Below are positions 36,931 through 54,003 of a stretch of DNA of 64,000 nt, in pieces (position 1 is the stretch's first letter; every line of letters begins with the position of its first letter). Made by a program: the position numbers and the translations under genes. Location: the NCBI RefSeq assembly GCF_016908635.1, contig NZ_JAFBEG010000013.1:1-64000 (forward strand). Direction: 5' to 3'. The notes beneath the pieces were generated by a model. The model did not search any database. It was not told the DNA's origin and saw only the letters and a list, made by a program, of their open reading frames with translations. The DNA comes from Sporohalobacter salinus (lineage in GTDB: Bacteria; Bacillota; Halanaerobiia; Halobacteroidales; Acetohalobiaceae).

Positions 36931-36986
36931 ATTAGTGTGTTTTTGGAAAATTAATTATGATTAATCTAACTAGGAGGAAAATTTTA

Positions 36987-38282
36987 ATGATAGATCGTTA
37001 TACTCTGCCTGAAATGAAAGATGTTTGGAGTGAAAAAAATAAATTTAATAAATGGTTAGATATCGAAATTGCTGTTTGTGAATCCTTAGCTAAAGTAGGT
37101 AAAATTCCAAATGAAGATGTAGATAAGATAAAGAATGAAGCTGACTTTACTGTTGATCGAATTAAAGAAATTGAAAAAGAGACTAAGCATGATATTTTAG
37201 CTTTTTTAACAGCAGTAGCTGAAACTTTAGGTGAAGAATCGAAGCATATACATTTAGGATTGACATCATCTGATATTAAGGATACAGCTCGTTCACTACA
37301 ATTAAAAGAGGCTGCAGAGATAATCTTAAGTGATCTAAAAGAGGTTACAGAATTATTAGGGAAGAAGGCCGTTGAATATAAAGATCAGGTAATGATTGGT
37401 CGTACTCACGGAATTCATGCTGAACCAATTACTTTTGGACTTAAATTGGCTAACTGGTATTCCGAAATGCAACGGAATATTGAACGATTTAGATCAGCTA
37501 AAGAGAGAATAAGTTATGGTAAAATCTCTGGTGCTGTAGGAACTTTTGCTAATATTACTCCTGAAGTAGAGGAGATTACCTGTGATATTTTAGATTTAAA
37601 ACCGGCTCCTATATCTTCACAGATTTTACAGCGGGACCGACATGCTGAATATATATCTACTCTAGCTGTAATTGCTGGTTCTTTAGACAGATTTGCTACT
37701 GAGATTAGAAACTTGCAGAGAACGGATATTTTAGAGGTAGAGGAATCATTTAAGAAAGGCCAGAAAGGTTCTTCAGCTATGCCACATAAAAAGAATCCGA
37801 TTACCTGCGAAAGAATTTCTGGTTTAGCTCGAGTTGTCAGATCAAATAGTACTGCTGCTTTTGAAGATCAGCCATTGTGGCATGAACGAGATTTAACCCA
37901 CTCATCAGTAGAGAGAATTATTTTTCCTGATAGTAGTATTTTAATAGATTATATGTTGACTAAATTTAAAACTGTACTTAAGCAGTTAGAGATTTATGAA
38001 GCTAATATGATGGAGAATTTAGAGAAAACTAGTGGTTTAATATTTTCTCAAAAAGTAATGTTGGAATTGGTAAATAAAGGTTTACTAAGAGATGACGCCT
38101 ATGAGTTAGTACAAAGGAATGCTCTTAAAGCTTGGGAAGGTGAGAAACACTTTAAAGATTACTTAGCAGCAGATGAAGAAATTTTAAAGTATTTGACTGA
38201 AAAAGAGATTGATAGGATTTTTGATTATGACTATCATCTTAAAAATATAGATGAAATTTTTATTCGGTTAGGATTAGAATAA
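36987..38282 (+). CDS. purB: Adenylosuccinate lyase (PurB), first copy
   Basis: Adenylosuccinate lyase removes fumarate from SAICAR and from adenylosuccinate. This 431-residue protein has the B. subtilis-type sequence, with RYTLPEMKDVWSEKNKFNKWLDIEIAVCESLAKVG at the start. TSSDIKDT and the GRTHGIHAEPITFG region follow, and the signature GSSAMPHKKNPITCERISGLARVV carries the catalytic serine loop. ATG at 36987 follows AGGAGG; a start at 36957 is unlikely. It pairs with purA 25 bases downstream, which fits AMP synthesis. A different lyase lies in the main pur operon. Confidence 0.93.
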   Translation: MIDRYTLPEMKDVWSEKNKFNKWLDIEIAVCESLAKVGKIPNEDVDKIKNEADFTVDRIKEIEKETKHDILAFLTAVAETLGEESKHIHLGLTSSDIKDTARSLQLKEAAEIILSDLKEVTELLGKKAVEYKDQVMIGRTHGIHAEPITFGLKLANWYSEMQRNIERFRSAKERISYGKISGAVGTFANITPEVEEITCDILDLKPAPISSQILQRDRHAEYISTLAVIAGSLDRFATEIRNLQRTDILEVEESFKKGQKGSSAMPHKKNPITCERISGLARVVRSNSTAAFEDQPLWHERDLTHSSVERIIFPDSSILIDYMLTKFKTVLKQLEIYEANMMENLEKTSGLIFSQKVMLELVNKGLLRDDAYELVQRNALKAWEGEKHFKDYLAADEEILKYLTEKEIDRIFDYDYHLKNIDEIFIRLGLE

Positions 38283-39610: not shown

Positions 39611-39640
39611 AACCGCCTGAACTTATTTAGGCGGTTTTTT
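39611..39640 (+). terminator. Terminator after purA
   Basis: An 8-base stem, AACCGCCT/AGGCGGTT (39611-39618 and 39629-39636), with a 10-base loop runs into a tract of T. It closes the purB1-purA operon. Confidence 0.9.
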
Positions 39641-39697: not shown

Positions 39698-39726
39698 TTG
39701 ACTAAACGACATATTTTTGGTATTAT
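39698..39726 (+). promoter_or_regulatory. Promoter of the main pur operon
   Basis: TTGACT (39698-39703) and TATTAT (39721-39726) are 17 bases apart and lie just upstream of the riboswitch. Upstream on the minus strand, ACGAATATTTTTT (39678-39690) resembles CCGAATATTTAT before purB1. Confidence 0.75.
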
Positions 39727-39759
39727 AAACTTGAAAAAAGGATTATATCCGAATGATAG

Positions 39760-39828
39760 CCTCATATAATTGTGGGAATAAGGCTCACGAGTTTCTACCA
39801 GGTGGCCATAAACTACCTGACTATGAGG
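39760..39828 (+). promoter_or_regulatory. Purine riboswitch aptamer, guanine type
   Basis: P1 is formed by CCTCAT at the 5' side and ATGAGG at the 3' side. Core segments TATAAT, AGTTTCTACCAGG, CCATAAACTACC and GACTATGAGG match the purine aptamer, including both kissing loops. The specificity base in GACTAT is C (adenine aptamers have U here), so the ligand should be guanine or hypoxanthine. It is the first of two aptamers before purD. Confidence 0.93.
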
Positions 39829-39829
39829 G

Positions 39830-39908
39830 GAGTGTACCTAGGGTTCCGCATTTATGGTCTGGTCCAAGCGGTACAATTATTTACACCGAAGGGAGAAAAG
39901 CCCAGGCG
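39830..39908 (+). promoter_or_regulatory. ykkC-family aptamer, PRPP-type riboswitch
   Basis: Immediately after the guanine aptamer come the conserved ykkC elements: ACCTAGGGTTCCGC, GGTCTGGTCCAAGCGGTAC, CACCGAAGGGAGAAAAGCCC. This family includes guanidine, ppGpp and PRPP sensors. The purine-operon context and the tandem arrangement with a guanine aptamer match known guanine-PRPP tandem riboswitches. Its 3' end (AAAAGCCCAGGC) overlaps the terminator stem, so ligand binding should prevent termination. Confidence 0.85.
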
Positions 39909-39960
39909 GGGAGGTTCTGCTCTTAGTCTAGTTGGCGGAATCTCTCTGCCTGGGCTTTTA
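39899..39960 (+). terminator. Riboswitch-controlled terminator before purD
   Basis: AGCCCAGGC (39899-39907) pairs perfectly with GCCTGGGCT (39948-39956). The stem extends inward through GGGGAG and CTCTCT, and is followed by TTTATTAA. The left arm is shared with the end of the ykkC aptamer, giving mutually exclusive structures. Confidence 0.9.
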
Positions 39961-39981
39961 TTAATATTAAGGAGGGATTTT

Positions 39982-41253
39982 ATGAAAACGTTGGTGATTG
40001 GAAGTGGCGGAAGAGAGCATACTTTAGTTTGGAAATTAAATCAGAGTCCGAAGGTAGATAAGATATTTGCTGCTCCAGGTAATGCGGGAACAGCTCAGTT
40101 AGCTAAAAATATTGATATAGATGATAAAAATGTTGAGGGATTAGTGGAGTTTGCTCAAAAAGAAAACATAGATTTAACTTTTGTTGGTCCAGAAGCACCA
40201 TTAGTTGCTGGAATTGTTGATCGTTTTAATGAAGAGGGTTTGAAAGTTTTTGGGCCAAATAAAGAAGCTGCAAAGTTAGAAGGAAGTAAAGTGTTTTCTA
40301 AAAACTTGATGGCTAAATATGATATTCCAACAGCTAAGTATGATACTTTTACTGACCCGGAGAAAGCAATTACATATATTAAAGAGGTAGGAGTTCCTAT
40401 TGTAGTTAAGGCTGAAGGCTTAGCTGCAGGAAAAGGAGTAATTATTGCTGAAACTGAAGCCGAAGCTATTGAAGCAGTAGAAACAATTATGCTAGATAAG
40501 AAGTTTGGTCAGGCAGGTGAAAGGGTTGTTATTGAGGAGTATTTAGATGGAGAAGAGGCAACTGTTTTAGCTTTTACTGATGGAGAGAAAATAATTCCTA
40601 TGGTACCTTCACAGGATCATAAGCAGGCTTATGATAATGATGAAGGCCCTAACACAGGCGGTATGGGGGCTTACGCTCCTGCGCCAGTAGTAACGGATGA
40701 AGTACTGCAGCAGGTTTATGATGATATTTTAGTACCGACTATTGATGCTTTGCAGAAGGAAGGAATTAAGTTTAAAGGAGTTTTATATACTGGACTGATG
40801 ATTACTGCAGACGAGACGAAGGTTTTAGAATATAATGTGCGTTTTGGTGATCCGGAAGCACAGCCAGTATTATCTCTTTTGAAGACTGACTTAGTAGATA
40901 TTGCTGAAGCTGTTATTACTGGAGATTTAGCTTCAGTAGAAGTGAAATGGTCTGATAAGAAATCTGTTTGTGTAGTAATGGCCTCAGGTGGGTATCCTAT
41001 AGATTATGAGACTGGTAAGGAGATTGCTGGAATTAAAGAGGTTGAAGCAGATGATATTACTGTTTTCCAAGCCGGTACTGAAAATAAGGATAATAAATTA
41101 GTAACAGCCGGTGGTAGAGTATTAGGTGTAACTGCGCTAGGTGATGGTTATCAAGGGACTATCAACAAAGCGTATCAAGGAATAGAAAAGATTGAATTTG
41201 AGGATGCACATTATCGGACTGATATTGGACATAAAGCATTGAATCATAAGTAG
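39982..41253 (+). CDS. purD: Phosphoribosylamine-glycine ligase
   Basis: PurD joins phosphoribosylamine and glycine using ATP to give GAR. The protein, starting MKTLVIGSGGREHTLVWKL, is 423 residues, the normal length. It has the ATP-grasp motifs VVKAEGLAAGKGV, VIEEYLDGEEAT, PSQDHKQAYDNDEGPNTGGMGAYAP and NVRFGDPEAQ. The reading frame stays open upstream to 39772 through the riboswitch, but the ribosome site AAGGAGGG and the family start both place translation at ATG 39982. It is the first gene of the main pur operon. Confidence 0.97.
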   Translation: MKTLVIGSGGREHTLVWKLNQSPKVDKIFAAPGNAGTAQLAKNIDIDDKNVEGLVEFAQKENIDLTFVGPEAPLVAGIVDRFNEEGLKVFGPNKEAAKLEGSKVFSKNLMAKYDIPTAKYDTFTDPEKAITYIKEVGVPIVVKAEGLAAGKGVIIAETEAEAIEAVETIMLDKKFGQAGERVVIEEYLDGEEATVLAFTDGEKIIPMVPSQDHKQAYDNDEGPNTGGMGAYAPAPVVTDEVLQQVYDDILVPTIDALQKEGIKFKGVLYTGLMITADETKVLEYNVRFGDPEAQPVLSLLKTDLVDIAEAVITGDLASVEVKWSDKKSVCVVMASGGYPIDYETGKEIAGIKEVEADDITVFQAGTENKDNKLVTAGGRVLGVTALGDGYQGTINKAYQGIEKIEFEDAHYRTDIGHKALNHK

Positions 41254-41278
41254 TAGCTTAAAAAGAGGAGGTGCTTAA

Positions 41279-42442
41279 ATGCTGATGGATGAGACTAAAC
41301 AAAAAATTGGCATTATCGGCGGTGGTCAATTAGGTAAAATGATGATTTTAGAAGCTAAAAAGATGGGCTTTTATATTATAATTCTGGATCCTACAGCCTA
41401 TTGTCCCGCCCATAGCATTGCTGATGAACATCTTATAGCTGATTTTGATGATGAGGAAGCCATTAGAGAATTAGCCAAGAAGTCTGATATTATAACTTAT
41501 GAATTTGAACATATTGGAGTAGAAGTTTTACAGGACTTAGAAAGTGAAGGATATGATATTTATCCTGCCCCAAAGGCGTTAGCTAATATTCAAAATAAAT
41601 ATCAGCAAAAAGAGTTGCTTAAGAAATATAATCTACCGGTACCAGATTATATTAAGGCAATTACTAAAGAGGATATTAAAATAGCAGGAGAGAAGTTTGG
41701 TTATCCTGTAATGTTAAAAAGTTGTACTGGTGGCTATGATGGGAAAGGGAATTTTTTAATTAGAAGTGAGAGTGAAATTAAAGCAGGATATCAGGCTTTA
41801 GGAGATGGGGATAATTTATTAATGGTAGAAGAGTTTATTCCTTTTGATAAAGAAATTTCAGTCTTAGCCTGCCGTAATGTTAGTGGAGAAGTAGTTACTT
41901 ATCCTATTGGAGAGAATAAGCATCAAGCTAGTATTTTAATTGAAACTAAGGTTCCGGCTGATATTAGCTCTCAAGTTAAAGAAGAGGCGCTTAAGCTAGG
42001 TCAAGAGGTTATAGAATTATTTTCGGGAGTGGGGATTTTTTGTATAGAGATGTTTGTGACAGAAGATGGTAGAGTGTTAATTAATGAAATTGCTCCTCGG
42101 CCTCATAATTCAGGTCATTATTCTATTGAAGGTTGTGTTACTTCTCAGTTTGCTAATCATATTAGAGCAATTACAGGTTTGCCGTTAGGAAGTACAGATT
42201 TAGTAAGGCCTTCGGTAATGAGAAATATTCTTGGTGAAGATGGAAGCAAAGGAGAAGCTAAAGTTATGGGGATGAAAGAAGCTTTAGAATTTTCAAATGT
42301 TAAAGTTCATAATTATGGGAAGAAGCTAACAAAACCCACTAGGAAGATGGGGCATTTAACAGCTACGGCAGATACAGTGGATAAAGCAAGCCAGGCTGTT
42401 TTAGAAGCAAGTAAACTGGTTAAGATAGGGTGTGAGTTTTAA
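41279..42442 (+). CDS. purK: 5-(carboxyamino)imidazole ribonucleotide synthase
   Basis: PurK uses ATP and bicarbonate to carboxylate AIR to N5-CAIR. The 387-residue ATP-grasp protein has KIGIIGGGQLGKMM at the N terminus, YPVMLKSCTGGYDGKGNFLI in the ATP-grasp domain, and VEEFIPFDKEISVLACR. NEIAPRPHNSGHYSIEGCVTSQFANHIRAI lies near the end. ATG at 41279 follows AGAGGAGG; a second ATG two codons later is possible. Together with PurE it forms the two-step bacterial route to CAIR. Confidence 0.95.
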   Translation: MLMDETKQKIGIIGGGQLGKMMILEAKKMGFYIIILDPTAYCPAHSIADEHLIADFDDEEAIRELAKKSDIITYEFEHIGVEVLQDLESEGYDIYPAPKALANIQNKYQQKELLKKYNLPVPDYIKAITKEDIKIAGEKFGYPVMLKSCTGGYDGKGNFLIRSESEIKAGYQALGDGDNLLMVEEFIPFDKEISVLACRNVSGEVVTYPIGENKHQASILIETKVPADISSQVKEEALKLGQEVIELFSGVGIFCIEMFVTEDGRVLINEIAPRPHNSGHYSIEGCVTSQFANHIRAITGLPLGSTDLVRPSVMRNILGEDGSKGEAKVMGMKEALEFSNVKVHNYGKKLTKPTRKMGHLTATADTVDKASQAVLEASKLVKIGCEF

Positions 42443-42478
42443 GTTGTAGATTTTAATTAAAATAGGAGGAATTAATTT

Positions 42479-42997
42479 ATGCAGCCTAAAGTAGGAATTA
42501 TCATGGGTAGTGATTCAGATTTACCGGTGATGCAGGAGGCAGCAAAAGTGTTAGATGATTTTGACCTTTCCTATGAGTTAACAGTGGTATCGGCTCATAG
42601 AACTCCTGATCGAGTAAAGGAGTATGCGGAAGAAGCAGCAGATAAAGGAGTTAAAGTTATTATTGCTGGTGCAGGTGGAGCAGCCCATCTACCAGGGATG
42701 ACAGCATCTCATACTTCTCTACCAGTGATTGGTGTTCCGATTAAAACTTCAAAATTAAGCGGGTTGGATTCCCTTTATTCAATTGTACAGATGCCTGGAG
42801 GAGTACCGGTAGCTACAGTAGGAATCAATGGAGCTGAGAATGCCGGACTTCTAGCAATTCAAATGTTGGGGATAGCCAATGAAGATATTAGAGCTGATTT
42901 CAAAGCTTATAAAGAAAAAATGGCTAATGAAGTAAAAGAAACTTCAGTAAAATTAGAAGAACTTGATTATGAAGAGTATTTAAATGAGAATTCTTAA
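42479..42997 (+). CDS. purE: N5-CAIR mutase
   Basis: PurE moves the carboxyl group of N5-CAIR to give CAIR. The 172-residue protein has the class I motifs [28 protein letters not shown] (catalytic histidine), [25 protein letters not shown] and [18 protein letters not shown]. Pairing with purK indicates the class I reaction. AGGAGG precedes the ATG. A patatin-like gene follows before purB2. Confidence 0.96.
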
Positions 42998-43053
42998 GTT
43001 AACACCTTTTTAGTATCGGTTCATATAATGTATATATAAGGTAGGTGATACCG

Positions 43054-44007
43054 ATGCTAAAAGGCAAGAGACCAACAGTAGGACTGGCTCTCGGTGGAGG
43101 AGGACTTAGAGGAGTAATTCATATCGGTATTTTAGAAATTTTTCAGCAACATGAAGTTCCAATTGATGTTATCTGCGGTAGTAGTGCTGGAGGAATGATT
43201 GGGGGACTTTATAGTACAGGATGTAGTGTTCAAGAATTAAAGGAATTAGCTTTTGATTTTAAAGAGGGAAAATATTTTAATCTAAGAATTGATCCAATTA
43301 GAGTTTTGCAAATTTTATTAAAAATTTTAATGGGGAAATTTGGTTTTAGTTGTTTAGACATGCCAAAGGGGATAATTATAGGGCAAGATATTGAGCGATT
43401 CTTACTTTGGCAGACTGAGGGCAAATATTTTGATCAAACTGAAATTCCAATAGCTATTACTGCTACTGATATTAAAACAGGAGAATTAATTATATTTACG
43501 GAGGATAGATTAACTCCTTCACTGCATGGTATGGACAATATGATCTTTATTCAGGGTTTAGATGATGATATTTTTATTACAGATTGTCAACTGGCTCAGG
43601 CTATTAGAGCTAGTATTTCGATTCCAGGATTATTTGTACCGGTAGAATTGGATAATCGTCTATTAGTAGATGGAGGTCTTAAAAATAATGTACCAGCTGA
43701 TATATTAGATAAGTTAAATGTTGATCTTAAATTGGCAGTAGATTTAGGATTTGAGATTCAGGATGATGATTCAATTAAGAACGTATTTGATATGCTGTTA
43801 CAGTCTTTTGATATAGTAGGCCAAGAAGTTACTGACCTTAAACTGGATGATTATGCTGATTTCGTTATTAGTCCTAATGTAGAGCAGGTTAGTTTAACTG
43901 ATGTAGACAAGATTCCTTACTTGTTGGAGGTAGGGAGAAAAATAGGAAGAGATTATGTTTATGAAATTAAGGATTTAATCGAAAATTTTAGGGAGGACAA
44001 TCAATGA
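43054..44007 (+). CDS. Patatin-like phospholipase
   Basis: The 317-residue protein has the oxyanion-hole GGGGLRGVIHIGIL, the nucleophile motif GSSAGG (Ser near residue 44) and the catalytic aspartate in DGGLKNNVP, the Ser-Asp dyad of patatin lipases. Members hydrolyse acyl ester bonds in membrane or storage lipids; the substrate here is unknown. I chose ATG at 43054, with GGTAGG upstream; a GTG at 43045 is possible. The stop overlaps the start of purB2 by 4 bases, so it is embedded in the purine operon although it has no obvious purine role. Confidence 0.87.
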   Translation: MLKGKRPTVGLALGGGGLRGVIHIGILEIFQQHEVPIDVICGSSAGGMIGGLYSTGCSVQELKELAFDFKEGKYFNLRIDPIRVLQILLKILMGKFGFSCLDMPKGIIIGQDIERFLLWQTEGKYFDQTEIPIAITATDIKTGELIIFTEDRLTPSLHGMDNMIFIQGLDDDIFITDCQLAQAIRASISIPGLFVPVELDNRLLVDGGLKNNVPADILDKLNVDLKLAVDLGFEIQDDDSIKNVFDMLLQSFDIVGQEVTDLKLDDYADFVISPNVEQVSLTDVDKIPYLLEVGRKIGRDYVYEIKDLIENFREDNQ

Positions 44008-45398
44008 CTACTCGTAGTATTTTTGATAATATCAGCCCCTTAGATCATCGTTATTCACTTCGTAAGGATGAATTTGAAGATTATAAGTATTATTTATCAG
44101 AAAGGGCTAAAATCAAATATCAAACAGCAGTAGAAGTTGCTTTAGTAAAGGCATTAGCTAAATCGGATATCTGTTCTAAAGAGATAACCAAAGAAGTAGA
44201 GGAAGCTGCTAAAAAGATCAATCCTCAAGAAGTATATGAAGAGGAAAAGAAGACTAAACATAATATTAGAGCTTTGGTTAATTGTATTCAACAGAGAGTT
44301 AGTGATGAGGCTAAGCCTTATATTCATTTTACTACTACTTCTTTTGATATTGTTGATACTGCAAATTCTTTGCGGTATAAGGAATGTGCAGAAGAATTAA
44401 TTTTGCCTACATTAAATAAATTGGAAAAGATTTTAATGGAAATTGCTCTTCGGGAAAAGGATACTATTCAGGTTGGCAGAACTCATGGGCAGCATGCTGT
44501 TCCAATTACTTTCGGTTTTGCAATAGCAGAGTATGTCAGTAGATTAGGTAATAGGATTAAAGAAATTGCCGAAAGTAGTCAGCAGTTAAAAGGCAAGATT
44601 GCTGGGGCAGTTGGTGCTTATAATGCTAGTCATCTTTTCTTTGAAGATCCAGAGAAATTTGAAGCTAATGTTTTAGCTGAACTAGATTTAGAAGCTGGTA
44701 CTCATTCAACTCAAATAGTAGAACCAGAATATATAACTGATTTTGTCCATTCGCTAGTTTCTTGTTTTGGAGTTCTGGCTAATTTTAGTGATGATATGCG
44801 TCATTTACAACGAACAGAGATTAGTGAAGTAGGAGAACATTTTGATAAAGACCAAGTTGGTTCTTCAACAATGCCTCACAAACGAAATCCTATCAATTAT
44901 GAAAATGTCAAAAGTATGTGGAAACAGTTCATGCCTAGAATGATGACTCTTTATCAAGATCAAATATCAGAACATCAAAGAGATTTGAGTAATTCTGCTT
45001 CAAGTAGATTCATACCTGAAATTATAGTTGGTTTATTATCGGCTGTTAATCGTTTAATTAGAACTTGTGAAAAATTAGTGGTTGATCAGCAGCAGATGGA
45101 AAATAATTTTGATCAGAGTAAAGAAATGGTAGTGGCTGAACCGCTCTATATTTTGCTTGCTTCTTTAGGACATCCTGATGCCCACGAAGCAGTCAGAAGA
45201 TTGACATTAGAAGCTCAGGAAACAGGGGAGACATTAAGAGAGCTAATTCAAAAGAAAGATGAATTAAATCCTTATTGGGAGCAGTTAACTGAGAAGCAAA
45301 AAGAGTTATTAATTAATCCGGACAAGTATACTGGAATAGCAGTTAGAAAAACAGAAAAAGTAGTTTCTTATTGGAAAGAAGAATTAGGGATTAATTAA
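44004..45398 (+). CDS. purB: Adenylosuccinate lyase (PurB), second type
   Basis: This 464-residue lyase belongs to the same superfamily as the copy at 36987 but is of a different type: MTTRSIFDNISPLDHRYSLRKDEFEDYKYYLSERAKIKYQ. It has HFTTTSFDIVDTANSLRYKE, GRTHGQHAVPITFGFAIAEY and the signature DQVGSSTMPHKRNPINYENVKSMW with the catalytic serine. Its place between patatin and purC suggests it mainly cleaves SAICAR in the IMP pathway, while the other copy pairs with purA. That split is inference. The start overlaps the previous stop (ATGA). Confidence 0.88.
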   Translation: MTTRSIFDNISPLDHRYSLRKDEFEDYKYYLSERAKIKYQTAVEVALVKALAKSDICSKEITKEVEEAAKKINPQEVYEEEKKTKHNIRALVNCIQQRVSDEAKPYIHFTTTSFDIVDTANSLRYKECAEELILPTLNKLEKILMEIALREKDTIQVGRTHGQHAVPITFGFAIAEYVSRLGNRIKEIAESSQQLKGKIAGAVGAYNASHLFFEDPEKFEANVLAELDLEAGTHSTQIVEPEYITDFVHSLVSCFGVLANFSDDMRHLQRTEISEVGEHFDKDQVGSSTMPHKRNPINYENVKSMWKQFMPRMMTLYQDQISEHQRDLSNSASSRFIPEIIVGLLSAVNRLIRTCEKLVVDQQQMENNFDQSKEMVVAEPLYILLASLGHPDAHEAVRRLTLEAQETGETLRELIQKKDELNPYWEQLTEKQKELLINPDKYTGIAVRKTEKVVSYWKEELGIN

Positions 45399-45425
45399 AT
45401 TTGATTTTATAGGAGGCATGTAATA

Positions 45426-46136
45426 ATGGAGAAATTAAAAAAACTCTATGAAGGAAAGGCTAAAAAGATTTATAGTACAGAGGATGATGATAAGATAGTT
45501 GTAGAGTATAAGGATGATGCTACAGCTTTTGATGGTCAAAAAAAGGGGCAGATTACTGAAAAAGGTAAATTTAATGCTGAAATTTCTACTATTTTCTTTG
45601 AGTTATTAGAAGAGCATGGAATACCTACTCATTTAATTAAGCAGTTAAATGAAGTTGATGTGCTAGTTAAAAAGCTAGAAATCATTCCTGTAGAAGTGGT
45701 AATGAGAAACATAGCAGCTGGTAGCTTAGCTGAGCGTTTAGGCTTAGAAGAAGGAACTGAGTTAGATCAGCCTGTATTAGAGTTTTATTATAAAGATGAT
45801 GATTTAGGAGATCCAATGATTAATGAGTATCACATTCAGACTGAAGAGTTAGCTAAAGAGGAAGAGTTAGAAGTAATTAAAGAGTTAGCTTTTGAAATCA
45901 ATGAAGTTTTAGTTGAATTTTTGACTGATAAAGATATTGATTTAGTTGATTTCAAGTTAGAGTTTGGAGTAGATGTAACTGACGGTAAGATATATCTTGG
46001 CGATGAAATTTCACCGGATACCTGTCGATTTTGGGATAGTAAGACTAAAAAGAAATTGGATAAAGATCGTTTCCGTAGGGACTTAGGAGAGGTTGAGAAC
46101 GCTTACCAAGAAATTTTAAAAAGACTGAAGTCATAA
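45426..46136 (+). CDS. purC: SAICAR synthetase
   Basis: PurC couples CAIR with aspartate using ATP. The 236-residue protein has the family motifs LYEGKAKKIYSTEDDDKIVVEYKDDATAFDG, PVEVVMRNIAAGS, VDFKLEFGVD and LGDEISPDTCRFWD. GGAGG is well placed upstream. It lies between purB2 and purS in a tight cluster. Confidence 0.97.
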   Translation: MEKLKKLYEGKAKKIYSTEDDDKIVVEYKDDATAFDGQKKGQITEKGKFNAEISTIFFELLEEHGIPTHLIKQLNEVDVLVKKLEIIPVEVVMRNIAAGSLAERLGLEEGTELDQPVLEFYYKDDDLGDPMINEYHIQTEELAKEEELEVIKELAFEINEVLVEFLTDKDIDLVDFKLEFGVDVTDGKIYLGDEISPDTCRFWDSKTKKKLDKDRFRRDLGEVENAYQEILKRLKS

Positions 46137-46158
46137 TTAAGATAAGGGAGGAAGTAAA

Positions 46159-46419
46159 ATGGACTATAAGGTAGAGATCGAGATTTTACTTAAGGAGAGT
46201 ATCTTGGATCCACAGGGACAAGCAGTAGAGGATGGCTTAGAAAAATTAGATTATAATAATGTATCTGATGTTCAAGTAGGAAAATATATAGAATTAGAAT
46301 TAGAAGATTTAGCATCGAAAGAAGAGGCTAGTAAGCAAGTAGAGGAAATGTGCCAGCGGCTATTGACCAACCCAGTAATTGAGGATTATACTTTTGAGAT
46401 TGAAGAGTTGGAGGGATAG
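46159..46419 (+). CDS. purS: FGAM synthase subunit PurS
   Basis: PurS is the small bridging subunit of the three-part FGAM synthase (PurS-PurQ-PurL). The 86-residue protein shows [46 protein letters not shown] and ends [23 protein letters not shown]. PurQ starts two bases after its stop, so the subunits are probably made in step. Confidence 0.95.
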
Positions 46420-46420
46420 T

Positions 46421-47119
46421 ATGAAATTTGCAGTCGTAACCTTTCCTGGATCTAATTGTGACCAGGATTGCTACCATGTAGTTAATGAAGTTTTAGAAGA
46501 GCCTACTGATATGTTATGGCATGATAATACAGCAGATCTATCTGAGTATGATTGTGTAATTTTACCTGGAGGATTTTCATATGGTGATTATCTCAGAACC
46601 GGTGCTATTGCCCGTTTTTCTCCTATGATGGAGTCAGTAATTGAGTATGCTAAAAATGGAGGTTTAGTAATTGGGATCTGTAATGGGTTTCAAATTTTAT
46701 TGGAAGCTGGCTTATTACCGGGAGCTATGAAAATTAATAATAGTTTGAAATTCGTCTGTAAACATATTGATTTAGAAGTTGTCAATGCTGAGACTCCTTT
46801 TACTAATCAATGTAGTGAAGGTGAATTGTTAAATGTTCCGGTAGCGCATGGAGAAGGAAATTATCATATTGATGAAGCGGGTTTACAGGAATTAATTAAT
46901 AATGACCAGATAGTAGTTAAATATAATAATGAGAATCCTAATGGTTCTATGGCTAATATAGCTGGAATTTGTAATAAGGAAAAGAATATATTTGGTTTAA
47001 TGCCGCATCCAGAACGCTGTTCTGAATCTATTTTAGGGAATGGCTCTGATGACGGTTATAAAATCTTTGCTTCAATTTTGGAATATGTGACTAAGAGAGG
47101 TGAGAATAATGGTCGATAA
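46421..47119 (+). CDS. purQ: FGAM synthase subunit PurQ (glutaminase)
   Basis: PurQ is the glutamine amidotransferase subunit that supplies ammonia to PurL. The 232-residue protein starts [17 protein letters not shown]. It has [17 protein letters not shown], the nucleophile cysteine in [18 protein letters not shown], and the histidine/glutamate pair in [12 protein letters not shown] at 46421 has GAGGG upstream; the frame extends left into purS but that start is unlikely. It overlaps purL by 11 bases. Confidence 0.96.
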
Positions 47120-49298
47120 ACTCTGGGAACAAGAAGGATTAACTGAGGCAGAATATGAAATGATTGTTGATATTTTAGGAAGAAAACCTAATCGAACTGA
47201 ATTAGGTATGTATGGTGTAATGTGGTCAGAGCATTGTAGTTATAAGAATTCTAAGGCAGTACTTAGAAATTTACCAACGGAAGGTGAGCGCGTTCTACAG
47301 GGGCCAGGCGAGAATGCTGGAATTATAGATATTGATGATAAACAGGCTGTTTCTTTTAAGATTGAGAGTCATAATCATCCGTCAGCAATTGAACCTTATG
47401 AGGGAGCAGCTACTGGTATAGGTGGTATTCTTCGTGATATTTTTACTATGGGAGCTAGACCGATAGCCTGCTTAAATTCACTTCGTTTTGGTGATTTAAC
47501 TAATGACCGTGTTAAATTTTTATTGGATGGAGTAGTTTCTGGAATTGCTGGTTATGGTAACTGTATAGGGATTCCTACTGTCGGGGGAGAAGTCTATTTT
47601 TCTGATTCTTATCAAGAAAATCCATTAGTTAATGCTATGTGTGTTGGAATTATGGATCATGAGGACATTTCTACTGGAACTGCTAAAGGTGTAGGTAATC
47701 CAGTAATGGTGGTAGGAGCAGCAACTGGTAGAGATGGAATTCAGGGAGCCAGTTTTGCTTCTGATGAGTTAACCGAGGATTCTGAAGAGGATCGGCCGGC
47801 AGTTCAGGTAGGAGATCCCTTTATGGAAAAATTATTATTGGAGGCCTGTTTGGAATTAATTAAGACTGGTTGTTTAGTCGGAATTCAGGATATGGGAGCA
47901 GCAGGACTGACTAGTTCTTCTTGTGAGATGGCAAGTCGTGGTGGAGCGGGAATTGAGTTAGATATTGACTTAGTACCGAAGCGAGCTACTGGAATGACAT
48001 CTTATGAAGTGATGTTATCTGAATCGCAGGAACGGATGCTAGTAGTGCCGAAGAAAGGCAAAGAGGACTTAGTGGAAGAAATTTTTGCTAAATGGGGACT
48101 ACATGCAGAAGTAGTTGGTAAAGTAACTGATGATGGAATGCTTAGAGTATATAAAGAAGATGAAATAGTAGCTGAAGTACCAGCAAGTTCCTTAGCGGAT
48201 GATGCTCCAGAATATAATAGAGAATCTAAGCGGCCGGAGTATTTAGACGAGGTTCAAAATTATAATGTAAATGAACTTGATGAGCCTACAGATTTTGATG
48301 AGGCATTGTTAGAGCTTCTTGTAGCTCCTAATATTGCTAGTAAAGAGTGGGTTTATGAGCAGTATGATCATATGGTACGGACTAATACTGTTGTTTTACC
48401 TGGTTCTGATGCAGCAGTATTGAGAGTGAAAGGAACTGACAAAGGATTAGCTGTGACAACAGATTGCAACGGACGCTATTGTTATCTCGATCCTGAACGT
48501 GGTGGAAGTATTGCGGTAGCTGAAGCAGCTAGAAATATAGTTTGTGCTGGTGGAGAACCAATTGCTATTACTGATGGCTTGAATTTTGGTAATCCGATGA
48601 AACCAGAGATTTTCTGGCAGTTTGAAAAATGTATTGAAGGAATTAGTAATGCCTGTTTAGCTTTAGATACCCCAGTAACTGGCGGGAATGTAAGTTTCTA
48701 TAATGAGAGTCCTACGGCAGCAGTTTATCCTACTCCAATTGTTGGTATGGTAGGATTGCTTGAAGATTTAGATCAGGCTACAACGGCTGATTTTAAAGAT
48801 GAAGGTGATGTTGTTTTGCTTTTAGGAGAGACTAAGGCGGAATTAGGAGCTAGTGAATATTTGAATACTATTCATGATTTAGAAACAGGTAAAGTTCCTG
48901 AACTTGATCTTGAATTAGAAAAGAGTGTACAACAAAGCTGTTTGCAAGCTATTAAATCCGGTCTTGTTAAGTCGGCTCATGATTGTGCTGACGGCGGATT
49001 AGCTGTGGCAGTAGCTGAAAGCTGTATAGCTGGCGATATAGGTGCAAAAATTGAAATAAAAAGTGAATTATCGACAGCAGAGTTATTATTCTCTGAATCA
49101 CAGAGTAGAATCCTTGTTTCGACAGCTAAGGAAGATGTGGCACAGCTAAAAGAGATAGCAGTTAAACATGATATTCCTATAACAGAGTTAGGCCAAGTAA
49201 CTGGTGAGAGGTTAGCAATTAATAATTCTGTTAGCCTAAAGATTGAGGAGTTGAAAGAAAAATGGCAGACAAGTATCGAAAACAAGATCGAAGATTAA
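47109..49298 (+). CDS. purL: FGAM synthase subunit PurL
   Basis: PurL converts FGAR to FGAM with ATP and ammonia from PurQ. The 729-residue protein is the small type that needs PurS and PurQ. Motifs include [14 protein letters not shown] near the N terminus (catalytic histidine), [29 protein letters not shown], and [33 protein letters not shown] appears near the end. ATG at 47109 follows GAGAGGTGAG. Confidence 0.97.
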
Positions 49299-50689
49299 TG
49301 GATAAGATGGAAGAGGAATGCGGAGTTTTTGGTATCTATGCATCTGATGGTAAGTGTGATGTAGCTAATCTCACTTATCTTGGGCTTCATGCTTTACAGC
49401 ATCGTGGACAGGAAAGTGCTGGTATCTGTGTTAATAATAGTGGAGAGCTAAGAGTTTATAAAGATATGGGATTAGTGACGAATATTTTTGATGAGGAAAA
49501 ATTATCTGATTTAACAGGAGAGATGGCTTTAGGTCATGTTCGCTATTCAACGACAGGTTCTAGCCTTTTGGCCAATGCTCAGCCTTTATTGGTTAATTCT
49601 AGCAAGGGGGATTTGTCATTAGCTCATAACGGTAATTTAGTTAATAGTGATGAAATAAGACATAATTTAGAAGAGCAGGGTACTATCTTTCATTCAACGT
49701 TGGATACTGAGGTTATTGCTCATTTAGTAGCTAGGTCCTTTAAAGATGATATTATTGAAGCTATTACACATAGTTTACAGCAGATTAAAGGTGCTTTTAG
49801 TATTGTAGCTATGACAGAGGATAGCTTGATTGCTGCTAGAGATCCCTATGGTTTTAGACCTCTATCTTTAGGTCGTAAAGGAGATAATTATGTAGTTGCT
49901 TCTGAGACTTGTACTTTCGATATTATTGGTGCCGAATTAATTAGGGATATTGAGCCTGGTGAGATGGTAATAATCAATGAAGATGGAATTGAAAGTTTTT
50001 ATTATAGTGAACAGAGACCGAATACTTTCTGTGTTTTTGAATTTATCTATTTTGCTCGTCCAGACAGTATTATAGGGGGACAGAATGTTCATCTAGCTCG
50101 CCGAGAGATGGGAAGACAGTTAGCTCGTGAAATGGATGTAGAAGCTGATTCGGTAATACCCGTTCCTAGCTCAGGAATACCATCTGCTTTAGGATTTTCT
50201 GAAGAATCAGGTATTCCTTATCAGCAAGGAATATTGAGAAATAAATATGTCGGCCGAACTTTTATTCAGCCAACACAAGAAATTAGAGATTTAAAAGTAA
50301 GATTGAAATTAAATCCAATTAAAGAAATAATAAAAGATAAAAAGGTAATCCTAATTGATGATTCGATTGTTAGAGGAACTACTAGTAAGCAAATTATCAG
50401 AATGGTAAGATCAATTGGAGCTAAAGAAGTTCATATGGCTATATCATCACCACCAGTAGCTTATCCTTGTTATTATGGTATGGATACATCACGCCGCAAG
50501 GAATTAATTGCTGGTCAGAAGGATATAGAAGGTATTTGTCAACATATTGGAGCTGATTCGCTCCATTATTTAAGTCAAGAAGGCTTATTAAATTCTATTA
50601 ATGCTAATGGGTATGGCTTTTGTACAGCTTGTTTTGATGGAGAGTATCAGATTGAGACTGGAATAGATAAATTTGCGCTAGAAAAGTAA
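49262..50689 (+). CDS. purF: Amidophosphoribosyltransferase
   Basis: PurF makes phosphoribosylamine from PRPP and glutamine, the first committed step. The catalytic cysteine lies in [13 protein letters not shown] after a short leader that is probably removed. The PRPP site is [17 protein letters not shown]. Cysteines in [16 protein letters not shown] and FCTACF match the [4Fe-4S] ligands of the Bacillus-type, oxygen-sensitive enzyme. I keep ATG at 49262, which has GAGGAG upstream and overlaps purL by 37 bases; ATG at 49298 (TAATG) is a good alternative and would give 463 residues. Confidence 0.94.
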
Positions 50690-50706
50690 TAAATGGAGGT
50701 GAGAGA

Positions 50707-51741
50707 ATGGGATTATCTTATGAAGATGCCGGTGTAAATATCGATGCTGGCGAAGAAGCAGTAGATAAGATAGGACAACATGTAGAATCCACTTTTGGGC
50801 CAGAGGTATTGACGGAACTAGGTAGTTTCGGGGCTTTATTTGCTCCAAATCTTACTGAATATGAAGAGCCAGTCTTTGTTGCTGGTACTGACGGAGTAGG
50901 TACTAAATTAAAAGTAGCTTTTATGATGGACAAACATGATACTATCGGAATTGATTTAGTAGCTATGTCAGTTAATGATATTGTAGTTCAGGGAGCTCGT
51001 CCTCTCTTCTTTTTGGATTATTTAGCTATCGATAACTTAATTCCAACTAAAACTGAAGAAATTGTGAAAGGAATTAGTCGAGGATGTAAGAAAGCAGGGG
51101 CAGCTTTAATTGGTGGTGAAATGGCTGAAATGCCTGGGTTTTATAGTCAAGATGAGTATGATTTAGCTGGATTTGCTGTTGGAATTGTAGATAGATCAGA
51201 AATAGTTACTGGCGAAGATATAGAATCTGGTGATAAAGTAATTGGTTTAACTTCTAATGGAATTCACAGTAACGGTTATTCTTTGGCTCGGAAGGTCTTA
51301 TTTGAAGTAGCTGGTTATGATGTGGAAACAGAATTAGTAGAACTTGATGACCAGTTAGGCCATGAATTGTTAAAACCAACTAAAATTTATGTGAAACCTA
51401 TTTTAGAATTATTAGATGAGTTTAAATTAAAAGGAATAGCTCATATTACTGGCGGTGGATTGGTAGAGAATTTACCCCGTATTCTACCTGAAGGAACAAA
51501 AGCAGTACTTGATTCGGATATTTGGCCGACACCGGTAATTTTTGATTTGATACAGCAAGAAGGGAATATAGAATTAACTGAGATGTATCGTACTTTCAAT
51601 ATGGGAATTGGAATGGCTATTGTTGTAAGTGCAGATAAGGCAGAGGAAGTTTTGACTAAATTAAATGAATTAGAGGAAGAAGCCTATCTTATTGGAGAAA
51701 TCCAGGGTGGTAATCAGACAGTCGACTTAAATTTGGAGTAA
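50707..51741 (+). CDS. purM: AIR synthetase
   Basis: PurM closes FGAM to AIR using ATP. The 344-residue protein has LSYEDAGVNIDAGEEAVDKI, FVAGTDGVGTKLKVAF, DLVAMSVNDIVVQGARPLFFLDY, and GGEMAEMPGFY. SNGIHSNGYSLARKV and HITGGGLVENLPRILP follow. GGAGGTGAG precedes the ATG, 17 bases after purF. Confidence 0.97.
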   Translation: MGLSYEDAGVNIDAGEEAVDKIGQHVESTFGPEVLTELGSFGALFAPNLTEYEEPVFVAGTDGVGTKLKVAFMMDKHDTIGIDLVAMSVNDIVVQGARPLFFLDYLAIDNLIPTKTEEIVKGISRGCKKAGAALIGGEMAEMPGFYSQDEYDLAGFAVGIVDRSEIVTGEDIESGDKVIGLTSNGIHSNGYSLARKVLFEVAGYDVETELVELDDQLGHELLKPTKIYVKPILELLDEFKLKGIAHITGGGLVENLPRILPEGTKAVLDSDIWPTPVIFDLIQQEGNIELTEMYRTFNMGIGMAIVVSADKAEEVLTKLNELEEEAYLIGEIQGGNQTVDLNLE

Positions 51742-51765
51742 GATTATAAAAGTGAGGTGGAGTAA

Positions 51766-52377
51766 TTGGGGAAGAAATTAGTTATTGGTGTTTTAGCTTC
51801 CGGAAGGGGGACTAATCTACAGTCGATAATTAACAGCATTGAAGAAGAGAGATTAGATGTCGAAATTGGAATTGTAATTAGTGATAAGGCAGATGCCAAG
51901 GCTTTATCACGAGCAGAAGATCATGGTTTAAAGCAACAGTGCATAAGACCTAGTGAGTTTGATAATATAAAAGAGTATGAAGCAGAAATGATTAAGGTTT
52001 TAGAAGAAAATAATGTAGAATTAGTTGTAATGGCTGGTTTCATGAGGATTTTAAGTTCTTATTTTATTCAGTATTATTCTAATCAAATTATGAATATTCA
52101 TCCATCATTATTACCTTCTTTTCCTGGGACTGATGCTCAAAAGCAGGCTCTTGAGTATGGAGTGAAGGTAAGTGGTTGTACAGTTCATTTTGCTGATGAG
52201 GGAATTGACAGTGGCCCCATTATTATACAATCAGCTGTGCCGGTGTTAGAAGATGATACAGTAACAAGTCTTTCTAAGCGGATTTTGGCTGAGGAACATC
52301 GGCTCTATCCAAAAGCAATTCAACTTTATGCTGAGAATAAATTGAGAATTAGAGCGGGGAAAGTAGAGATTATATAA
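51766..52377 (+). CDS. purN: GAR transformylase (folate-dependent)
   Basis: PurN transfers a formyl group from 10-formyltetrahydrofolate to GAR. The 203-residue protein has VLASGRGTNLQSIINSI, VVMAGFMRILSSYFI, the active-site NIHPSLLPSFPGTDAQKQAL and GCTVHFADEGIDSGPIIIQ. The start is TTG with GAGGTGGAG upstream. It is followed by purH after 21 bases. Confidence 0.96.
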   Translation: MGKKLVIGVLASGRGTNLQSIINSIEEERLDVEIGIVISDKADAKALSRAEDHGLKQQCIRPSEFDNIKEYEAEMIKVLEENNVELVVMAGFMRILSSYFIQYYSNQIMNIHPSLLPSFPGTDAQKQALEYGVKVSGCTVHFADEGIDSGPIIIQSAVPVLEDDTVTSLSKRILAEEHRLYPKAIQLYAENKLRIRAGKVEII

Positions 52378-52398
52378 AAATTAATTTGAGGTGATAAT

Positions 52399-53967
52399 AT
52401 GGAACAGATACGATATGCTTTAATTAGCGTTTCGGATAAAACAGGAATTGTGGAGTTTGCAAAGGGGCTGCATAAGTTGGGAGTTAATATTGTGTCTACT
52501 GGAGGTACCGGAGCTAAATTAAAGGAAGCAGGAATTCCGATTGTAGATATTCCACAGGTAACTGATTATCCAGAGATGATGGATGGTAGAGTTAAGACAC
52601 TTCATCCTGCTGTACACGGAGGTATTTTAGCTGTTAGAGATAATGAAAAGCACATAACTGAACTTAAGGAATTGGGAATTAAACCGATAGATTTAATTGT
52701 AGTTAATCTTTATCCTTTTGCTGAGACAATCTCTAAAGATAATGTAACATTTGAAGAAGCAATTGAAAATATAGATATTGGTGGGCCTACAATGATTAGA
52801 TCAGCTGCTAAGAACTGTAATGATGTGGGGGTAGTAGTTGATCCTACAGATTATGATGGGATTTTAGAGGAGTTAAAGGAGAATGGAGTAGAATTATCAT
52901 CTGATAGAAAATTAGAGTTAGCCTATAAAGCCTTTAAACATACTGCAGAGTATGATCATTTGATTCAGGATTATCTCTTTGACTTTGTTAAAGATGAAGA
53001 TGAAGCCAAGGAAGTAATCCGAGAACGATATGAGAAGGTTAGTGATTTACGCTATGGTGAGAATCCTCATCAAAAGGGAGCTTTTTATCGACAAATGGAG
53101 ACAACAGAACCTTCGATAACAACAGCCAAGCAGCTGCATGGTAAGGAATTATCTTTTAATAATATTAATGATACCAATGGAGCCTTAGAATTAGTGAAAG
53201 AATTTAGTGCTAAACCAGCAGCAGCAGTGATTAAACATGCTAATCCCTGTGGTATGGCGACAGCGGATACTTTAGTTGAGGCCTACAAGCAGGCTCATGC
53301 TGGAGATCCTGTTTCAGCTTACGGTAGTATTGTAGCTTTAAATCGTAAAGTTGATAAAAAAACGGCAGAAGAGATAGCAGATCCTGAGAAATTTGTTGAA
53401 GTAGTAATTGCTCCTAGCTTTAGTAAAGATGCTTTTGAAATTTTGCAGAATCGATGGGAGAGTGTGCGGTTGTTAGAAACTGGCGAGTTGTTTATCGATG
53501 AAGATACTACTGAAAAGGATATGAAAAAGGTTGTCGGCGGTCTGTTAGTGCAGGATCGTGATCTAGCTCAATTAGATGAATCGGAGCTTGAGATTGTAAC
53601 TGATCGTCAGCCGACTGATCAGGAACTTAAGGATATGTTATTTAACTGGAAGGTTGTTAAGCATGTTAAATCTAATGCTATCGTGATGGGTAAAGATGAA
53701 CAGATTGTCGGCGTTGGTGCTGGACAGATGAGTCGGGTAGATGCTATGATTATTGCTGGACGAAAGGCAGGGGAAAGAAAAGAAGAAGCAGTAGTAGCTT
53801 CTGATGCTTTCTTTCCTTTCGCTGATGCAGTTAAGCAGGCAGCTGAGATGGGGATTACAGCTATTATTCAGCCCGGTGGTTCAATTAGAGATGAAGAAGT
53901 AATAGAAGCTGCTAATGAACATGGTATTGCTATGGTTTTTACTGGTCGGAGACATTTTAATCATTAG
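52399..53967 (+). CDS. purH: Bifunctional AICAR transformylase/IMP cyclohydrolase
   Basis: PurH carries out the last two steps to IMP. The N-terminal IMP cyclohydrolase domain has ALISVSDKTGIVEFAKGL, STGGTGAKLKEAGI, and TDYPEMMDGRVKTLHPAVHGGIL. The C-terminal transformylase domain has LRYGENPHQKGAFY, AAVIKHANPCGMA and the closing SDAFFPFADAVKQAAEMGITAIIQPGGSIRD. Length 522 residues is typical. It ends the purine operon at a terminator. Confidence 0.97.
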   Translation: MEQIRYALISVSDKTGIVEFAKGLHKLGVNIVSTGGTGAKLKEAGIPIVDIPQVTDYPEMMDGRVKTLHPAVHGGILAVRDNEKHITELKELGIKPIDLIVVNLYPFAETISKDNVTFEEAIENIDIGGPTMIRSAAKNCNDVGVVVDPTDYDGILEELKENGVELSSDRKLELAYKAFKHTAEYDHLIQDYLFDFVKDEDEAKEVIRERYEKVSDLRYGENPHQKGAFYRQMETTEPSITTAKQLHGKELSFNNINDTNGALELVKEFSAKPAAAVIKHANPCGMATADTLVEAYKQAHAGDPVSAYGSIVALNRKVDKKTAEEIADPEKFVEVVIAPSFSKDAFEILQNRWESVRLLETGELFIDEDTTEKDMKKVVGGLLVQDRDLAQLDESELEIVTDRQPTDQELKDMLFNWKVVKHVKSNAIVMGKDEQIVGVGAGQMSRVDAMIIAGRKAGERKEEAVVASDAFFPFADAVKQAAEMGITAIIQPGGSIRDEEVIEAANEHGIAMVFTGRRHFNH

Positions 53968-53976
53968 TAATTAGCT

Positions 53977-54003
53977 AGAGTCTGGATTATCCAGGCTCTT
54001 TTA
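53977..54003 (+). terminator. Terminator after purH
   Basis: A hairpin AGAGTCTGG/CCAGGCTCT with a 6-base loop has one G-T pair and is followed by TTTTATTTTT. It ends the pur operon. Confidence 0.88.

Follow-up and report, generated by a model that had tools for sequence, protein, structure and literature searches.

Guanine-PRPP tandem riboswitches, in which a guanine aptamer is followed by a PRPP-binding aptamer of the ykkC family, have been described as an IMPLY-gate class (PMC5912903), and 192 examples were counted in 2022 (PMC9481103). At B. megaterium codA guanine raises and PRPP lowers termination, and PRPP wins when the two compete (Sherlock et al. 2018, PMC5912903). The published spacing between the P1 helices of the two aptamers is 5–7 nt, and the 2018 paper mentions Firmicutes only for tandems (PMC5912903). 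P0 of the PRPP aptamer and P1 of the guanine aptamer have been proposed to be mutually exclusive (Knappenberger et al.); according to a 2022 review, the structural switching of the tandem is not yet established. The residues that separate the ligands of ykkC aptamers were defined in a crystal-structure paper (PMC6031431). Position 49 is A in guanidine-I aptamers and a pyrimidine in PRPP aptamers, position 96 is G in >97% of the PRPP class and is not G or is absent in ppGpp aptamers, and the G96A change alone turns PRPP specificity to ppGpp, a shift of ~40,000-fold (PMC6031431).

We analysed a 64,000-nt stretch of Sporohalobacter salinus DNA (the window), for which the original prediction had placed a guanine-PRPP tandem, known elsewhere as a two-input gate, before purD. 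Our data indicate that such a tandem very probably governs transcription of the IMP operon through one terminator and approximates an IMPLY gate, with the two aptamers probably coupled by strand exchange. The locus resembles the published class (PMC5912903, PMC9481103) in the order and spacing of its aptamers, its one terminator overlapping the PRPP aptamer, its purine genes and its PRPP-defining residues. It differs in that its P0 is bulged and in a possible extension of P0, in the window's clade, to the guanine-binding cytosine; moreover, it controls purD first, a gene that the 2018 paper does not mention in its main text (PMC5912903). Thus, the locus adds an example to a known class and is no new category of device, a well-supported addition to the only natural IMPLY gate built of two aptamers. 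A search of the Acetohalobium and riboswitch literature found no mention of this locus in titles or abstracts.

Organization of the purD leader

Over 1.1 kb, purA comes to an end and is followed by its terminator, a probable promoter, the purine aptamer of guanine type, the aptamer of the ykkC family, a terminator of 26 bp and finally purD. The features are as follows; the tandems referred to are 87 loci gathered from relatives and by scanning genome contigs for a pattern.

39611–39636: purA terminator, from the terminator scan
39698–39726 (+): probable promoter, TTGACT-17-TATTAT with an extended −10 TG, 10/12 consensus matches, transcript start at ~39733
39760–39828 (+): guanine aptamer (P1, P2, P3), full-model match to RF00167, 21/21 helix pairs standard
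39822–39828 (+): switch strand UAUGAGG, the 3′ strand of guanine P1, whose last four bases (39825–39828) also belong to P0; pairing of each helix conserved in the 87 tandems, with comparative support
39825–39831 (+): 5′ strand of P0, pairing with 39915–39922 through 7 pairs with G39919 bulged
39831–39914 (+): core of the PRPP aptamer (ykkC subtype 2b), RF00442 match, residues by T. mathranii numbering, pattern the same in 87 tandems
39831–39922 (+): whole ykkC-family aptamer
39896–39959 (+): intrinsic terminator common to both aptamers, a 26-bp stem followed by UUUUAUU, from the fold
39915–39922 (+): 3′ strand of P0, UUCUGCUC, also within the 5′ arm of the terminator
39923–39928 (+): UUAGUC in the terminator loop, which could extend P0 onto 39819–39823 (GACUA, including C39821); clade-specific, not general
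39982–41253 (+): purD, the first controlled gene (TIGR00877, 582.7 bits versus a cut-off of 288)
41285–53967 (+): rest of the operon, purK, purE, a patatin-like gene, purB, purC, purS, purQ, purL, purF, purM, purN and purH (NCBIfam)
53977–53999: operon terminator

The predicted extent of the switch, 39760–39960, proved accurate, as did the statement that the second aptamer follows the first within two bases: the last base of guanine P1 is 39828, and A39831 is the first of the 5′ tail of the PRPP aptamer. The guanine aptamer comes first and the gap between the two P1 helices is 5 nt (39829–39833). Neither folding nor the terminator scan revealed a terminator between the two aptamers in the leader. 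Promoter-like sites in the region are no more numerous than in shuffles, and the main argument for the promoter at 39698–39726 is its position. The purD start at 39982 has AGGAGG upstream, and the TIGR00877 match bears out that the switch precedes this gene. Two other candidates were discarded: a long open reading frame with a GTG start at 39772 arises from extending purD mechanically in the upstream direction, and microRNA and sRNA matches at the leader in a permissive Rfam search fall short of the gathering threshold and are due to the hairpin of the terminator.

A guanine-type purine aptamer

The first aptamer had been called a guanine-type purine aptamer, and an Rfam covariance search recovered it as RF00167 (39742–39843 with flanks) at 85 bits against a gathering threshold of 37, with an E-value of 6.6e-14 over the whole window. 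The match is full and includes the core and the loop-loop bases. All three helices are present: P1 (39760–39766/39822–39828), P2 (39770–39776/39784–39790) and P3 (39799–39805/39813–39819). A C at the ligand-pairing position of such aptamers pairs with guanine, while a U would mean adenine. In the GACUA at the end of the window's aptamer this position is C39821, which corresponds to C74 in the xpt aptamer of B. subtilis, and the sequence therefore supports guanine as the ligand of 39760–39828. Unlike a plain guanine riboswitch of RF00167, this aptamer has no terminator of its own and instead feeds the PRPP aptamer and the common terminator.

Ligand assignment of the ykkC-family aptamer

That the second aptamer belongs to the ykkC family was borne out by a permissive Rfam search, which matched 39827–39910 to RF00442 (ykkC/guanidine-I) with 49.1 bits and an E-value of 7.8e-8. 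The gathering threshold of 63 was not reached, as expected since the aptamer is of a variant subtype and that threshold was made for guanidine-I; no PRPP model of Rfam 15 matched at the locus. Its P1 is formed by 39834–39838 and 39870–39874. We set residue numbers to those of T. mathranii from the primers printed in PMC6031431 plus its text, with positions 74–78 presuming a P3 of equal length. By this numbering the aptamer has A5 (39831), G6 (39832), G48 (39868), C49 (39869), ACACC at 74–78 (39883–39887), G96 (39905), a purine at 101 (G39910), A103 (39912), G104 (39913) and G105 (39914). ACACC and G96 are found in 87/87 tandems, the invariance of ACACC being partly by construction because our script used it as the anchor for P3. 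A pyrimidine occupies position 49 in 85/87; of the other two, one has A and one was not read by the script.

These residues, together with a layout matching the class of PMC5912903, point to PRPP as the ligand, as predicted, and make binding of ppGpp or guanidine in its place unlikely. A guanidine-I riboswitch beside a guanine aptamer would accord with the top Rfam model, Guanidine-I, and with the shared ykkC fold and core. Yet the score of 49.1 bits falls short of 63, ACACC stands in place of ACACGG, no guanidine genes are present, and the locus has P0 tails, which are absent from guanidine-I. Position 49 is A in 21 of the 24 strong RF00442 (guanidine-I) matches in the phylum, and on sequence C49 excludes this type, so that we give the guanidine reading next to no credence. 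The second aptamer might also sense ppGpp (ykkC subtype 2a), in which case the device would report the stringent response and not PRPP. The ppGpp and PRPP aptamers have nearly all conserved residues in common, and the wild-type PRPP aptamer itself binds ppGpp weakly (91 µM versus 2 µM, PMC6031431). Here G96, present in the window and in every tandem and not found in ppGpp aptamers, argues against ppGpp, as do downstream genes for purine synthesis and not amino-acid synthesis; we consider this reading very improbable.

Finally, the PRPP half could have decayed in this genome, leaving guanine control alone. Such decay does occur, a relative (L149) having an interrupted PRPP core; in the window, as in its sister species, the two P0 strands and all of the contact residues are preserved, and we judge decay here highly unlikely. 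The PRPP aptamer thus assigned resembles that of T. mathranii (PDB 6CK5, PMC6031431), which itself comes from a tandem, in its PRPP-contacting residues, its P0 and the length of its 3′ tail (95–105). It differs in having G rather than A at 101 and G rather than U at 102, and its P0 5′ strand reads GGGGA where that of T. mathranii reads UGAAA.

A single terminator and the strand common to P1 and P0

Both aptamers were predicted to feed one terminator, and the leader indeed contains a single 26-bp stem (39896–39959) that takes in the 3′ portion of the ykkC-family aptamer. Folding of positions 39742–39965 gave −87 kcal/mol and a z-score of −4.6, owing mostly to this terminator, and 0/200 shuffles reached a fold as stable. 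The simple terminator scan missed it, probably because its loop exceeds the 3–8 nt limit of the scan; the fold shows it plainly. The 3′ strand of P3 of the PRPP aptamer, like that of P0, lies within the terminator 5′ arm, and the terminator overlaps both strands in 83/84 tandems. Four bases are common to P1 and P0, and the 3′ strands of P0 and P3 lie in the terminator arm, so that the three structures, P1, P0 and terminator, are alternatives linked in a chain.

The window's P0 is imperfect, with two G-U pairs and one bulge. Before the terminator is made, guanine P1 is more stable than P0 by ~9–13 kcal/mol in secondary-structure energies alone, calculated with a model that takes no account of kinetics, ligands or tertiary contacts. 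We set aside minimum-energy folds as proof of a switch; they favour guanine P1 plus the terminator whatever the state, and neither prove nor disprove switching. A ligand-free antiterminator seen in the fold, 39829–39838 paired with the P0 3′ region, was also rejected; it cannot explain the guanine OFF effect because it is compatible with guanine P1.

Comparative analysis of P1/P0 coupling

We examined P1 and P0 across the tandems by permutation, slide and Fisher tests, all of which ignore common descent, so that their figures serve as guides. When the P1 5′, shared and P0 3′ strands of 71 distinct tandems were cut out, each helix gave lower pairing energies with the native partner strand than after partners had been exchanged between tandems. 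For P1 the energies were −7.78 (own) and −6.10 kcal/mol (swapped), and for P0 −7.92 and −6.77 kcal/mol, with 0/1000 permutations doing as well in either case (kinship ignored). In the main class (57 distinct tandems) in-register pairing occupies 91% of cells for P0 against at most 71% when slid, and 98% for P1 against at most 54%. Some P0 pairs show two-sided changes, from A-U to G-C at pair 3 and from G-C to U-A at pair 4.

The same three bases serve pairs 4–6 of P1 and pairs 6–8 of P0, and it is here that tandems and singlets part. Compared with 45 distinct stand-alone PRPP aptamers that have G96 and come from the same phylum, P0 pairs 1–4 are equally constant in both sets, whereas pairs 6–8 are each paired in 56–67% of singlets versus 87–89% of tandems. 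All three are paired in 43/55 distinct tandems and in 13/45 distinct singlets (Fisher P 9e-7, kinship ignored). It is thus chiefly downstream of a guanine aptamer that the outer part of P0, the segment that would take the place of P1, has been retained. This comparison lends support to P1/P0 strand exchange and points out bases to mutate.

Two aptamers acting independently on the terminator or clashing sterically, with no common strand and no P1/P0 exchange, would be another way to build the device. A steric clash was left open by Sherlock 2018, the fold energies do not favour P0, and P0 is weak in some tandems (L120). Against this stand the far more frequent pairing of outer P0 in tandems than in singlets, exactly at the overlap with P1, and the survival of the swap and slide controls by both helices. 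We regard a device without exchange as rather unlikely, and strand exchange between P1 and P0 as the probable coupling of the two aptamers.

Proposed gate mechanism

Both aptamers and their ligand-defining residues are present in the window, where P1, P0 and the terminator also overlap one another; comparative evidence supports both helices. Ligand binding, the direction of switching and the output of the gate would follow the characterised relatives from B. megaterium, H. modesticaldum and T. mathranii. By analogy with these, UAUGAGG (39822–39828) would either close guanine P1, stabilised by guanine, or lend its last four bases to P0, stabilised by PRPP. With P0 and P3 formed, the terminator 5′ arm would be held and transcription would continue; with P1 held by guanine, P0 would be incomplete, the PRPP aptamer weakened and the terminator free to form. 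Expression would thus be shut down only by high guanine, the end product of the pathway, combined with low PRPP, its starting material, approximately an IMPLY output. Against the strand-exchange scheme, it gives no account of the ON state with neither ligand.

A possible clade-specific extension of P0

At 13 loci of the window's order (L144 and L147 repeating L066 and L043) CUCUUAGU immediately follows the 3′ strand of P0, within the loop of the terminator, and variable sequence comes after it; L139, of the same order, lacks it after P0. CUCUUAGU is complementary to GACUAUGAG, and the extended P0 duplex has −14.4 versus −7.2 kcal/mol, with C39821 paired. Extension of P0 into GACUA was rejected as a general feature of tandems, such pairing being no commoner than in shuffled tails (75/200 shuffles reach it). 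For these halophilic anaerobes we tentatively suggest that an extended P0 (39819–39831 with 39915–39928) may span the whole P1 strand and pair C39821, such that the PRPP state would dismantle the guanine pocket, an idea we hold to be possible and somewhat short of probable. If true, PRPP binding in this group would do more than disturb guanine P1.

Operon and genome context

The controlled genes form a complete 13-gene operon in one direction, purD to purH (39982–53967), which covers the steps from PRPP to IMP. All of its pur genes pass the NCBIfam cut-off except purB (324.9 versus 326.2). A patatin-like phospholipase gene (43054–44007) sits between purE and purB, and adenylosuccinate lyases resembling purB are encoded twice, once next to purA upstream of the operon (36984–38282) and once within it (44004–45398), the latter being the gene just under the cut-off.

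Elsewhere in the genome, two single guanine aptamers precede guaA (L002) and guaB (L003), gene names that we read from translations; the aptamer at 39831–39922 is the genome's only ykkC-type match. Guanine plus PRPP on the IMP branch and guanine alone on the GMP branch fit the reasoning in PMC5912903, and one genome thereby offers a natural contrast between an IMP operon under both ligands and GMP genes under guanine alone.

Tandems in related genomes

Relatives also have tandems before purD. It is the nearest purine gene in eight tandems of our set, and purE or purK is nearest in most others, often behind a permease-like gene. A search of the order with the guanidine-I model gave matches in 6/13 genomes, and some of the others have a tandem hidden by long inserts in P1b. 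Candidate tandems also occur in metagenome-assembled genomes labelled Ktedonobacterales, Ktedonobacteria or Chloroflexi (L041, L058, L078, L093 and L105), labels that may reflect contamination; some of these precede purine or cytosine permease-like genes.

In four loci (L043, L055, L066 and L080) the P1b hairpin of the PRPP aptamer contains AT-rich inserts of ~100 bp with inverted repeats. That of L080, from Orenia, has 28 matches in its own genome and so resembles a small mobile repeat that the hairpin tolerates. L149 is the second tandem of an Orenia-like genome. A similar repeat takes the place of its PRPP core CUAGGGUUCCG, while the guanine aptamer, P0 and terminator are kept, and this locus probably has a naturally broken PRPP half. 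L042 and L146 are PRPP-like aptamers from which the P1a/P1b hairpin is almost wholly absent (for example, CUAGGGUUCCGAUCCAAGUGG), and are possibly minimal or defective variants.
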